64,000 nucleotides of DNA, taken from Clostridia bacterium. Its GTDB lineage: Bacteria; Bacillota; Clostridia; Oscillospirales; Acutalibacteraceae. The DNA lies in NCBI GenBank assembly GCA_024692685.1, contig JAILMJ010000041.1, positions 53,513-117,512 of the forward strand, written 5' to 3'. Position numbers and translations under genes: made by a program. Shown here piece by piece: positions 14,720 through 26,730 of the stretch. Each line of letters starts with the position of its first letter. The first letter of the stretch is position 1. The notes below the pieces were generated by a model. That model made no database searches. It had not been told where the DNA came from and worked only from the letters and a program-made list of their open reading frames with translations.

Positions 14720-14897
14720 AAACAGCTTATCCGCAGATAGCACTCCACAAACCGTGACAGTCCGTTACATATTCTGCAACGGCCCAATATTTTACCTCGG
14801 GCGCGGTAAAATATTTCGGCAAAAACTCCTTTCGGTCTCTCATATCTGCCCTTTTTACCGGAGACTTACTTATAGTTTTTGCACCTCTATCTTTGCG
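14720..14897 (-). ncRNA. Lysine riboswitch (L box) aptamer
   Basis: Minus strand GATAGAGGTGCAAAAACTATAAGTAAGTC..AAAGGAGTTTTTGCCGAA..CTGTCACGGTTTGTGGAGTGCTATC matches remembered L-box consensus blocks in order and spacing. Confidence 0.9.
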
Positions 14898-20149: not shown

Positions 20150-21082
20150 ATGACAATTCAACAACTTAATTATATCGTGACAATTTCCGAAGCGGGCTCA
20201 ATGAACAAGGCTTCGGAGCTGCTCTATGTTGCTCAGCCTTCTCTGACTTCGGCTGTTCGCGAACTTGAAAACGAGATAGGTTTCAAAATATTCAACAGGA
20301 GCGGACGGGGAGTGACTCTTACTCCCGAAGGCGCAGATTTTATTCCCTATGCCAGGCAGGTTTGCAATCAGTATAAAGATTTGCTTGAATATACAGGAAA
20401 AGCCTCAGGGAGAAAAAAGAAGTTTGCGGTTTCCACTCAGCATTATTCTTTCGCGGTCAAAGCCTTCGTAGAACTTGTAAAGGAGTTTGATACCTCCCGA
20501 TATGAGTTCGCTGTTAGGGAAACGCAAACGAAGGATGTTATAAGAGATGTAGCTAACCTCAGAAGCGAAATCGGAATACTGTATCTGAGTGATTTCAACA
20601 GAGCTGCGATAGGTAAACTTCTGAGAACAAATGATCTTGAATTCCATCACCTTATTGACTGCGAGCCTTATGTTTATATCTGGAAAGGCCACCCGCTTGC
20701 AGGAAAGAAGTCAATAACTTTTGACGAACTCCGGGACTATCCGTGTCTTTCGTTTGAACAGGGAGACACCGCTTCTTTTTATTATGCCGAGGAAATTTTA
20801 AGCACAGAGGAATATATCAGAACCGTTAAAGCAAATGACAGGGCAACAATGCTGAATCTTATGGTAGGCCTTAACGGATATACCCTGTGTTCCGGCATTA
20901 TATGTGAAGAGCTGAATGGTGATGACCATGTTGCTGTTCCGTTTGAATCGGATTCCGTCAAAGAAAACAGTACAATGGAAATCGGTTATATTACAAAGAA
21001 GAATATGGTTTTGAGTACTCTCGGGATTAAATATATTGAAAAAATATGTGAATACCTTAATATTGAAAAAACCGGGTTATAG
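20150..21082 (+). CDS. LysR family transcriptional regulator
   Basis: MTIQQLNYIVTISEAGSMNKASELLYVAQPSLTSAVRELENEIGFKIFNRSGRGVTLTPEG HTH; start at ATG 20150 with GGGGAAG RBS. Confidence 0.92.
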   Translation: MTIQQLNYIVTISEAGSMNKASELLYVAQPSLTSAVRELENEIGFKIFNRSGRGVTLTPEGADFIPYARQVCNQYKDLLEYTGKASGRKKKFAVSTQHYSFAVKAFVELVKEFDTSRYEFAVRETQTKDVIRDVANLRSEIGILYLSDFNRAAIGKLLRTNDLEFHHLIDCEPYVYIWKGHPLAGKKSITFDELRDYPCLSFEQGDTASFYYAEEILSTEEYIRTVKANDRATMLNLMVGLNGYTLCSGIICEELNGDDHVAVPFESDSVKENSTMEIGYITKKNMVLSTLGIKYIEKICEYLNIEKTGL

Positions 21083-21100
21083 TTTCAGACTATAACCCGG
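21072..21100 (+). terminator. Terminator hairpin overlapping the lysR stop codon
   Basis: ccgggttatagt-ttcag-actataacccgg, 12-bp perfect stem; weak T tract. Confidence 0.6.
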
Positions 21101-21115
21101 CATTGTATTTGTGTA

Positions 21116-21145
21116 TTGGACAGAATTGTCATTCGGGTTTATAAT
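21116..21145 (+). promoter_or_regulatory. Promoter for leader ORF and O-acetylhomoserine sulfhydrylase
   Basis: TTGGAC, 18 bp, TATAAT. Confidence 0.6.
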
Positions 21146-21175
21146 TCAGTCATCAAAACGAAGGAGGCAAAAGCC

Positions 21176-21244
21176 GTGAAGAAAAACATTTGTACAAAGC
21201 CTGCGGCCTATGTATTCTCTTGTTTCCGAATGTGCTGCAAATAA
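21176..21244 (+). CDS. Putative Cys-rich leader peptide, 22 aa (MKKNICTKPAAYVFSCFRMCCK)
   Basis: GTG start, strong SD AAGGAGG 8 nt upstream, 4 Cys incl. tandem TGC TGC before the stop, located between promoter and the sulfhydrylase gene; absent from the supplied ORF track because of its length. Confidence 0.65.
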   Translation: MKKNICTKPAAYVFSCFRMCCK

Positions 21245-21288
21245 AATACTAACAACGTAAGCCCAAACAAAATAAAGGAGAGATTAAA

Positions 21289-22660: not shown

Positions 22661-24085
22661 CTATCTGGAAAAAAGTGCTTGGAAAAAGCCGATGTCGATT
22701 CCGTCATCTTTCAGCCGTGAATAAACGCTTATGTTATTGAAAAACTGGTATATTGTTCCGATAGTATAGATAAATATATTCTGCGGAGGAGCAATTTTTG
22801 AAGGATGGCCTCCGTTTTTATCTGTTTTGCAGAGTGTCAGGGTATTAAAAGGATCATCGGAATCGGTTGAGTAGGAGCTGACCTTGATTGTTTCTTTTCC
22901 GAAGTCAATGATATTGTAAAGAATTTTATCACCCTGTTCGTCATATATATATCCTGCCGTATCGTTTAGACCGAGTGTGCTTTCGTCATCGTTCCTCGGT
23001 CTGTTAATTGAGCCGGATACCATACAGACAGTTCCTTCGGCGTTGTTTATGACGCAGTCTTTCGATGTTTCAGAAACAATCCTGTTGTTATACATTACAT
23101 CGGAGACCGAATAGTAGTGGCTGTGACCGGTTAAAACAAGGTCAATACCGAATTCATCAAAAAGGGGAGCCCAGATGATTCTCATAAGTTTGGTTTCCGA
23201 TTCCCTGTGAGGAATCCTGCCGCTGTAAAGGTCGTGATGCATCATAACAACCCGCCATCTGATATCTTTATTTGCTTTTACCGCGTTCTTCATAAATATA
23301 TGATGGTCAAGTCCGCTTCCTGAGTTGCTGTCCATTACCATAAAGAGAACATCGCCTTTTACAAACCAGTAGTCACCGGAAATATAAGAGGAATTTATGT
23401 TGACTTTCTGTTCATTCGGGACATTCTTGAAATACTTGTAGGCGACACCTTTTCTGTCGTGGTTTCCGACTGCTGTCGCAAAACTGAGTTCTCTGCTTTC
23501 CCTTGATGCCGTAAGACCTTTGTATTCATCTTCTCTTCCTTCGCTTGCCTGATCTCCCGCCGAAAGAATAAGTGAAATATTCGATTTGCTTTCCGCTTTT
23601 TTGAGTACCTGTGTAAAGTTGTATGACTGGTCTCTTATACTGTCGGGATTTCCGTCATCATGGGAAATGTGAATGTCGGTAACATACATTGCCGAGAAAA
23701 CTTCTGCTTCGGTAGAGAAAGTATAGCTCTGCGATTCATAATCACGGCTTATACATTTGTAAGAGTAGGTTGTATCCGGCTGCAAGCCGGTCAGTGTAAC
23801 CTTGTTTGCAAAGTCTCCGTCGTATGTCTTTATGCAATATCCTTCAACTTTTTCAACATCACCCGTTGCGGTATTTGTCACTTCAACAAGCGGAGTACCT
23901 TCAGCTTCCGAATACCAGGAAATATTTCTCTGAGTTTCATCTGCGCCGGGGAAGCACACTATACCGCTTTGAGCTTCGTACGTATTCCAATATTCATTCC
24001 ACTCTTCACTGACGGCGGCGTAAGACGGAACAAATGCTGTTATTGCAAAACAAATTGATAGGAGAACGGCTGCAATTTTTTTCAT
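22661..24085 (-). CDS. Secreted metallophosphoesterase with purple-acid-phosphatase-like N-terminal domain
   Basis: Signal peptide; VTDIHISHDDG, AGDQASEG, GNHDRKG, HHDLYSG, LTGHSHYYS. Confidence 0.85.
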   Translation of the reverse strand: MKKIAAVLLSICFAITAFVPSYAAVSEEWNEYWNTYEAQSGIVCFPGADETQRNISWYSEAEGTPLVEVTNTATGDVEKVEGYCIKTYDGDFANKVTLTGLQPDTTYSYKCISRDYESQSYTFSTEAEVFSAMYVTDIHISHDDGNPDSIRDQSYNFTQVLKKAESKSNISLILSAGDQASEGREDEYKGLTASRESRELSFATAVGNHDRKGVAYKYFKNVPNEQKVNINSSYISGDYWFVKGDVLFMVMDSNSGSGLDHHIFMKNAVKANKDIRWRVVMMHHDLYSGRIPHRESETKLMRIIWAPLFDEFGIDLVLTGHSHYYSVSDVMYNNRIVSETSKDCVINNAEGTVCMVSGSINRPRNDDESTLGLNDTAGYIYDEQGDKILYNIIDFGKETIKVSSYSTDSDDPFNTLTLCKTDKNGGHPSKIAPPQNIFIYTIGTIYQFFNNISVYSRLKDDGIDIGFFQALFSR

Positions 24086-24086
24086 A

Positions 24087-25595
24087 TCAGAATGTATCCT
24101 CTTCTATGTAAACTCTTATTATATCAGGTACGATTGAAAGAAATCTGGGAAGCCAGCCGGTAAATGTATAAACGGCGAGTGCGCAGAAGCTGGGCACAAC
24201 ACCAAGATAAAACTCTGCAGCGCTTGTAGTGTTGTCTCCGCTGAATGTTGCGATGTTTTTGCCTGTCTCTTTTGTTACGGTGTAGGTATCAATATTTGTT
24301 ATGATTCTCCCGCCGTTTTCATCTTTAAGTTCATCCGACAGAATATACGAGTTGAGAGTCAGAGTGCCGTCTTTTATGCTGAGGCAGTTGAAGCATCCGC
24401 CTACGTTTGTATCCTTTGTGCTTTCGAAGTCCGTGCCGTTGAAATAATTTGCATACCCGTCACGCTGAACAGTCATTGCGGCAATCTTATCAACATCCGT
24501 GAAAGAATTTTCAAGGAATGAACGGATTTGATATCTTTTTGTGCCCGCGGTGCCCGAAAGGATATAGGTGGTACCGTTGTCATTAAGTTTGTTTGCTTTA
24601 AGAGGTTTTGTTCTCAGATACTGATGGTCGTGACCGCTCATAACAAGATCAACGCCGCATTCATCGCAGACTTTTGTGAGTGATTTTTGCAGATAAAGGG
24701 CGTCAGGCCATTTGCCGTCTTTACCAAGAGTGTAGGGTGATTTATGCGCAAATACTATTTTCCAGTCCTTGTCGGTTGAATTCATATCGTTCCTGAGCCA
24801 TTTAAGCTGCGCAAGACTGACAGAAAGAACGTCGTTGGTGTTGATTACGGCAAAGTGAGCATTGCCATAGTCAAAAGAATAATTAACGCCGTTCAGATTC
24901 TGAACGCTCTCCGAATCGTCAAGGTTAAACATATTCTCAAACCAGTGCCATACACCGAGACCGTCATGGTTTCCGGCGATGGGAACAAGCGATGTTTTTA
25001 AACTTATCGGATCAAAGTTTTTGGCATAGTAGTCCCATTCTTCGTTGGTGGAGTCATTGGTGAAGTCGCCGAGATTGGCAATAAATTCCGCGTCCGGCAT
25101 TACGGAGAAAGAAGCCTCAACGGTTTCTGCGCCTCTCCTGAAGTTTTCGTCCGAGCTTGCCTGAACATCAGCAACAACAATAAAGTTAAGTTCGGAGTCT
25201 CCGTCATCGGTTCTGAACTTTCCCTCATTGCTCCTGACCTGTGCGCTGCCTACCGTATAAGTGTATTCTTTGCCGCCTTCAAGGCCTTTAACCTTTGCTT
25301 TGTGGCAGTAGTTGCCTTCCCATTCAAATACATCGTTATATTCAATAACGGCGTCGGGGGCTTCGTTTATAACAACGAGAGAGTCTGTATCCGCTTTGGT
25401 GAACCAGGTGAATCCTCTTTCACTTGCCGTGTCGCCGTTTACCGTCAGCGAAATTCTGAACGGCTGTGTATCGCTCGTTACATACTCGCCGGCGTCTGTC
25501 GGAGTTGCCTCCTGAGCCAGAGCAGGTGAGAAGCAGCAAATCATAACAGTCAGCGCCAATACCAGAGATAATGCTTTTTTGCAGTTCTTAATCAC
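24087..25595 (-). CDS. Secreted metallophosphoesterase with purple-acid-phosphatase-like N-terminal domain
   Basis: Signal peptide; VADVQAS, NLGDFTND, IAGNHDG, FAHKSPY, MSGHDHQYLRTK. Confidence 0.88.
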   Translation of the reverse strand: MIKNCKKALSLVLALTVMICCFSPALAQEATPTDAGEYVTSDTQPFRISLTVNGDTASERGFTWFTKADTDSLVVINEAPDAVIEYNDVFEWEGNYCHKAKVKGLEGGKEYTYTVGSAQVRSNEGKFRTDDGDSELNFIVVADVQASSDENFRRGAETVEASFSVMPDAEFIANLGDFTNDSTNEEWDYYAKNFDPISLKTSLVPIAGNHDGLGVWHWFENMFNLDDSESVQNLNGVNYSFDYGNAHFAVINTNDVLSVSLAQLKWLRNDMNSTDKDWKIVFAHKSPYTLGKDGKWPDALYLQKSLTKVCDECGVDLVMSGHDHQYLRTKPLKANKLNDNGTTYILSGTAGTKRYQIRSFLENSFTDVDKIAAMTVQRDGYANYFNGTDFESTKDTNVGGCFNCLSIKDGTLTLNSYILSDELKDENGGRIITNIDTYTVTKETGKNIATFSGDNTTSAAEFYLGVVPSFCALAVYTFTGWLPRFLSIVPDIIRVYIEEDTF

Positions 25596-25615
25596 TTTGA
25601 TTCTCCTTTACAAAC

Positions 25616-26575
25616 TTATTTATCAGTGCCGTAGGAAATTCGGATATCATATTGAGGCAACCATTCTCCTTTAATCATATCCCTTGCTCTGAAGAGAACA
25701 GAGTCCTCATAAACCTCAACTATGTAACCCTGACCGTATTCATTGTAATCGCCGTCTGCGTTTGTGCAGCACATTGAGGGTAAATTGACTGAGTCGAAGT
25801 TGCCTATCTTTTCATATGTGTATGGTCCGAAGCCTGTGTGCTCATGACCGGTCAGCAGGATAATATTGTCATATTTATTGAGTATGGCTTTGAGGTCATC
25901 GCTCTGGTTCCCTATGGAACCGGCTGAATCAATGGGGCTGTTCCACACCTGCGGAAGACCGTGTGTAAGTTTGAGCGGCTGATGAACAACGACAAAAGTA
26001 AGGGAGCCGTTCTGAGCGGCAAGTTCATCATCAAGCCATTTAAGCTGTTCCTCTCCGAGATAGGACTCTTCAAATTCGGTCCTGTCCGAGCCGAGGATTA
26101 TAAATTTGATGCCGTTGATTAATTCAGAGTGATGGAGACAGTCTGCGTCAGTGTCGTTGTTGAGTGCATTTACAAAGCCGTTGAATCTTTTGCACGTGCT
26201 GTTGTAGTTTCTCAGTCTTATATCGTGGTTTCCGACGCAGGCAATGTATCTTACGTCCATGCCGCCAATATGTTCAAGCACAAGCTGATACTCCATATCA
26301 AGGCCGTTTTCGGCAATATCGCCCGCAAGCAATACGGCGTCAAGTCCCTGTGAAGCCTTCAGGTCGGCGGAAGCCTGCTCAAAATAGACATATCTGTCCA
26401 TCATATAATTGCTGACCTGCGGGTCTGCGAGAGCAGCAAATGTAAGTTTCGAGCTGTTGTCGGCGGGTTTGATAGGGTCAGCCGTTGAGGGCATTGCCGG
26501 TGTGCCGTTAACAGAGCAGTAAATTGAAAAAATAAAGAGAAAAATCTTGATGAGTAGCGATGTCAGTGCAGACAT
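25616..26575 (-). CDS. Secreted metallophosphoesterase
   Basis: Start moved to internal Met before the hydrophobic N-terminus; ALADPQVS, LAGDIAENG, CVGNHDIR, VVHQPLK, LTGHEHTGFG. Confidence 0.87.
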   Translation of the reverse strand: MSALTSLLIKIFLFIFSIYCSVNGTPAMPSTADPIKPADNSSKLTFAALADPQVSNYMMDRYVYFEQASADLKASQGLDAVLLAGDIAENGLDMEYQLVLEHIGGMDVRYIACVGNHDIRLRNYNSTCKRFNGFVNALNNDTDADCLHHSELINGIKFIILGSDRTEFEESYLGEEQLKWLDDELAAQNGSLTFVVVHQPLKLTHGLPQVWNSPIDSAGSIGNQSDDLKAILNKYDNIILLTGHEHTGFGPYTYEKIGNFDSVNLPSMCCTNADGDYNEYGQGYIVEVYEDSVLFRARDMIKGEWLPQYDIRISYGTDK

Positions 26576-26730
26576 AAAGCCTCGCCTCCTGTTATGTTTT
26601 ACATCATAAATTATAGCATTATTTTTAAAAATGTAAACATATAAACCTAACAAATCGAAAGCTGATATTGTGTAAAAAACACTGAAAGGGTTTTACAAAA
26701 CGGCTTGGCCGAAACCTGTTTATTATTTCC

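Follow-up and report, generated by a model that had tools for sequence, protein, structure and literature searches.

Translational attenuators of the ermC/ermB type consist of a short ORF led by its own Shine-Dalgarno (SD) sequence, with the SD of the downstream gene sequestered until a stalled ribosome frees it, and need no terminator. In this study, we analyzed a window of 64,000 nucleotides from a Clostridia bacterium of the Acutalibacteraceae, in which a short leader ORF precedes a type-I O-acetylhomoserine sulfhydrylase (OAHS) gene. This ORF and its relatives, the CGA-AUG leaders, resemble the ermC/ermB type in these respects, and a stalled ribosome would likewise free the downstream SD. 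However, they precede sulfur amino-acid genes, and stalling is proposed to occur without a drug, at a fixed codon pair with Met/Cys codons. The his, trp, and leu transcription attenuators place a leader ORF before a biosynthetic gene, with codons for the end product whose role the Met and Cys codons here may share, and their alternative antiterminator/terminator pairings are like those of a second class of the leaders described here. In contrast, class 1, which includes the window leader, has no terminator, and in place of a long run it has a single Met codon, often joined by one or two for Cys.

Short Cys-containing uORFs before sulfur genes have been proposed to respond to cysteine supply in mycobacteria (Canestrari et al. 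2020, cited in PMC13236596). By the title of that report they are leaderless and polycysteine, whereas the window ORF is SD-led, the core of its family is CGA-AUG, many members lack Cys, and a Cys run is not required. T-box, SAM, and other methionine riboswitches are also cis-acting controls of Met/Cys genes in Firmicutes, but Rfam covariance models (riboswitch, T-box) gave no match at gathering score for the window leader and 18 related loci. The window also resembles the CmhR/MtaR (LysR) regulon with its MET-box, since a LysR gene lies nearby and a MET-box-like site precedes the promoter; that control acts on DNA, and the leader would be an extra layer.

Organization of the window locus

The features of the locus are listed in Table 1. 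The first-pass annotation had described a GTG-started ORF with its own SD, a promoter, and a 44-nt gap between the leader stop and the OAHS start, and all of these were accurate. TTGGAC (21116-21121) and TATAAT (21140-21145) form the promoter-like pair; the match given in Table 1 is for the TGGACA register, in which the spacer is 17 nt. The assignment of the downstream gene was also correct, with a TIGR01326 score of 600.6 bits against a cut-off of 495.1. As had been claimed, no intrinsic terminator was found between the leader ORF and OAHS (21245-21288). NCBIfam curated models returned no family for the 22-aa peptide, a query so short that it has little power.

Table 1. Features of the OAHS leader locus (window positions)
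Feature	Position	Strand	Basis
LysR-type regulator gene	20150..21082	+	start judged by eye from translation
MET-box-like operator (putative) TATAGTTTCAGACTATA	21078..21094	.	inside palindrome 21072-21100; 16/17 match to TATAGTTTSAAACTATA
Sigma-70-type promoter TTGGAC(A)...TATAAT	21116..21145	+	11/12 positions
Leader-ORF SD GAAGGAGG	21160..21167	+	sequence; 8 nt 5' of GTG
Leader ORF VKKNICTKPAAYVFSCFRMCCK*, 22 codons, GTG start	21176..21244	+	sequence, conservation
Anti-SD TCTCTTGTTT within leader ORF	21216..21225	+	predicted fold, pairs with 21274-21283
Conserved motif CGA-ATG-TG(C), proposed stall site	21227..21234	+	
OAHS SD arm AAAGGAGAGA	21274..21283	+	P(unpaired) from predicted fold
Type-I OAHS, 434 aa	21289..22593	+	TIGR01326 above cut-off

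The published CmhR/MtaR site is TATAGTTTSAAACTATA (PMC5359408). Since the putative operator near the promoter matches it so closely and adjoins a LysR gene, OAHS transcription is probably also controlled by LysR and the MET-box. TATAG-N7-CTATA-like sites were found in 18/80 relatives. The palindrome that contains the operator also scores as a terminator downstream of the LysR gene and may serve as both.

Elsewhere in the window, a lysine riboswitch (RF00168, 119.6 bits) lies on the minus strand at 14730-14897, and three adjacent metallophosphoesterase-like genes, assigned to one family by eye from their translations, occupy 22661-26653 on the same strand.

Distribution of the CGA-AUG leaders

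The 250 nt upstream of OAHS were collected from 80 relatives and the window, giving 81 regions. The strongest shared word was CGAATGTG, present in 28/81 regions and in none of the same regions reversed. A single frame, CGA-ATG-TGN, is used, and the word falls close to the 3' end of short, mostly SD-led ORFs. In an independent protein-family sample of 59 genomes of the order, it occurred at 17/30 type-I OAHS loci, and with the reversed-sequence control this ruled out chance or non-conservation. Type-II OAHS carried the leader at 0/24 recognisable loci in the same 59 genomes. The second OAHS gene of the window's genome (L262, G000:C7:18500-19040) is type-II, and its upstream region has no CGA-AUG leader.

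When 150 genomes of the family were scanned starting from the motif, leaders were found before OAHS, MetQ-N-I, and SsuA-like sulfonate transporter genes. The window's own genome contains 41 CGAATGTG sites, among which the window leader is the sole convincing leader of its kind. Within the genus, whose OAHS orthologues are only 70-73% identical to the window OAHS, a CGA-ATG leader is present at 12/14 loci, and eight of those belong to the second class with a terminator. Matches to the peptide pattern NFRxGRM, a subtype of class 1, span 14 families of the order. The 69 class-1 leaders fall into 63 clusters at 72% identity; related leaders are thus not fully independent.

These results support well the existence of a widespread family of CGA-AUG leader peptides, predicted from sequence, of which the window ORF is one member, and they bear out the suggestion that a sulfur amino-acid gene is preceded by a conserved leader ORF with a regulatory role. 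The family appears, provisionally, to be undescribed: a literature search of open-access papers returned the octamer in primers and other unrelated sequences. Among the type-I OAHS loci sampled, however, those with a CGAATGTG leader are a minority (43/109), which counts against the attenuator model below.

Predicted folding and the proposed mechanism

As in a ribosome-mediated attenuator, a short, SD-led, frame-conserved ORF, predicted to be translated, lies upstream of the gene. In silico, leader RNA sequesters the SD of the gene, and a ribosome halted at the proposed site would expose it. In the window fold, TCTCTT-G-TTT pairs with the OAHS SD arm (Table 1), and the predicted P(unpaired) of the OAHS SD rises from 0.17 in the full leader to 0.73 when the RNA up to about CGA+20 is removed. 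The signal from simple duplex and swap tests was modest, and composition may contribute to it; full folding against shuffled and recoded nulls was therefore used instead. Across 68 leaders, SD accessibility was 0.348 compared with 0.485 in dinucleotide shuffles (difference -0.137 ± 0.030). When the RNA was masked up to CGA+18, real and shuffled leaders were equal (0.537 and 0.542). Synonymous recoding of the leader ORF also weakened sequestration (-0.062 ± 0.018). The SD partners in 62 cluster representatives were concentrated at -30 to -1 and +6 to +23 of CGA and avoided CGAATG itself; the octamer was ruled out as the SD partner, positions 0-5 being depleted. In a minority of leaders, such as L098, the SD is accessible.

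Sequestration of the class-1 OAHS SD by the bases flanking CGA-AUG is thus well supported by modeling. These paired bases are those that a ribosome on CGA-AUG would be expected to cover, which argues for translational attenuation. A translational mechanism rather than a terminator, as the first-pass annotation had proposed, is therefore probable, the predicted sequestration being significant against two nulls.

We consider it fairly likely that class 1 is a ribosome-mediated translational attenuator that responds to Met/Cys limitation through a stall at CGA-AUG. Bases just 5' or 3' of CGA-AUG would pair with the OAHS SD and keep OAHS translation low, as the folding suggests. The leader ribosome would slow at CGA-AUG and, when Met-tRNA is short, wait with AUG in the A site; when Cys-tRNA is short, its waiting place would be a UGY codon, one to a few codons downstream. 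The footprint of the waiting ribosome would cover the anti-SD, so that the OAHS start is exposed and homocysteine synthesis goes up. The third motif codon lies 50-88 nt from the gene start in 61/69 leaders.

We infer the signal sensed and the role of CGA. CGA, read only by tRNA-Arg(ICG) via an I.A pair, may delay decoding of the codon after it to an unusual degree, and one Met or Cys codon could then be enough as a sensor. The Arg anticodons found in the window's genome are ACG, CCG, TCT, and CCT; TCG was not found in this assembly, which is 91% complete. CGA is also the rarest Arg codon in the window genes (4/127 Arg codons in eight genes). CGA is slow in a Salmonella his-leader assay (PMC4046918), but in view of work in subtilis (PMC10454642) slow CGA in Clostridia is a presumption, which counts against the attenuator model.

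The second class of leaders, [C/W][C/W]RM-L-x-S-R-A with CGA-ATG, was found in 8/14 genus relatives and at several other loci in Clostridia and Coriobacteriia (L351, L355-L360, L362, L087, L089, L197, L200, L295, and L296, partly aligned; L091 is diverged). The order of parts is leader, CTCCCGGGC, GCCCGGGAG, a G+C-rich arm, and a T-run. The arms are predicted to form alternative antiterminator and terminator pairings, with CTCCCGGGC, GCCCGGGAG, and the terminator mutually exclusive. Class 2 is probably an undescribed transcription attenuator; no Rfam family matched the class-2 leaders tested. With the Arg codon left free in a looser pattern, CGA was used in 9/9 hits in 398 genomes of the family, and a scan of the class with the strict pattern gave only two hits. 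Class-2 members lie upstream of OAHS, an amino-acid ABC permease, and MetQ.

Among MetQ-like substrate-binding proteins, those at L165 and L212 have their Pfam halves swapped, with profile positions 95-234 ahead of 1-95, an order that suggests circular permutation. Swapped-order PF03180 hits also occur in G002, G003, G022, G036, G042, G076, and G179, and L296 has the usual order.

Codon conservation and the signal sensed

When the peptide NFRxGRM was used for selection and any codon was allowed for either Arg, 295 genomes gave 50 hits, compared with about four in the reversed control. The last Arg was CGA in 46/50 hits, and the first used all six codons; two of the four exceptions (L270 and L281) were inspected and are not leader-like. 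Among the 69 class-1 leaders, gathered with T required at the first place after AUG, the next codon was TGC in 27, TGA in 23, TGT in 15, TGG in 2, and TAT and TAC in one each. About one third of class-1 leaders end in RM*, and 18/23 of these have no Cys. Because CGA is nearly fixed, the codon after AUG varies, and most RM* leaders lack Cys, the sequences indicate that CGA-AUG is the core and that Cys codons are a frequent addition.

The first-pass annotation had placed Cys codons at the core, with Cys-tRNA supply as the signal, and an attenuator that senses Cys-tRNA through Cys codons alone is a minor possibility. Cys is enriched downstream of the motif, at 50/364 (13.7%) compared with 13/729 (1.8%) before it, and UGY follows AUG in most leaders (42/69). 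In class-2 leaders, Cys codons stand immediately 5' of CGA. However, Trp takes the place of Cys in some of these, UGA and UGG stand in for UGY in class 1, and Cys is not the defining element in view of the Cys-free RM* leaders. No sulfur amino acid other than Met is found at the site in every member, and sensing of Cys-tRNA alone is therefore unsupported. The proposed check of OAHS upstream regions did find a conserved short ORF, but the shared element is CGA-AUG and not C..C..CC. Most matches of a degenerate-codon search of 300 genomes for CFRMCCK were attributable to chance (14 genomes, compared with about six reversed-pattern hits), as conservation does not lie in this stretch.

A ligand-sensing arrest peptide of the TnaC/SpeFL kind is given the same small weight. 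With the nascent chain ending in RM in the P site and UGN in the A site, a bound sulfur metabolite would block peptide transfer or release. The synonymous versus non-synonymous check proposed earlier is compatible with this, as NFRxG is kept at the amino-acid level with synonymous variation at N, F, G, and the first Arg. CGA is codon 17 in 32/39 NFRxG-subtype leaders, and together these two observations hint at a nascent-chain effect. Directly after RM, the only stop is TGA (23/23); later stops are TAA (25), TGA (19), and TAG (2). The attenuator model explains neither the fixed position of CGA in this subtype, nor the UG after AUG, nor the TGA-only stops. On the other hand, many leaders have just RM in common, class 2 encodes a different peptide, and a peptide does not account for the fixed synonymous codon CGA.

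It is less probable still that CGAAUGUG is a nucleotide-level element that merely lies inside the ORF, such as an RNA-binding protein or sRNA site or an RNA polymerase pause. The UG after AUG is usually kept whether it spells Cys, stop, or Trp, and codon -1 mostly starts with G; we take GNNCGAATGTG to resemble the RNA polymerase pause consensus G-10..TGYG. Such an element would not explain why one leader-ORF frame is always used in the unselected OAHS set, and class 2 and two genus relatives (with TCA or CGC next) keep CGA-ATG without the following UG.

The least probable reading, and very unlikely, is that CGA directly before Met/Cys codons is itself the sensor, through tRNA thiolation rather than aminoacylation: s2C32-modified tRNA-Arg(ICG) cannot read CGA, as shown in E. 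coli (PMC5372741), and sulfur status would set the dwell time. CGA precedes ATG in 16/28 and TGT in 9/28 class-2 leaders (another codon in 3), and the window's genome has a TtcA-like gene, a tRNA-Arg(ACG) with C32, and no TCG anticodon among those found, but the TtcA match is below its curated cut-off, the tRNA modification is putative, and the effect would run the wrong way, with extra sulfur raising both stalling and OAHS, unless the parts are arranged differently.

If the attenuator model is true, the leaders would form an undescribed regulatory family through which many gut Clostridia control the synthesis of homocysteine and the uptake of sulfur amino acids. They would be an example from nature of selection holding on to a single synonymous codon pair, CGA-AUG, in peptides that are otherwise diverse, and the codon pair as a regulatory stall signal in bacteria would be directly testable. 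Within one genus, the same dicodon precedes orthologous genes in two predicted architectures, one with SD sequestration and the other with a terminator.
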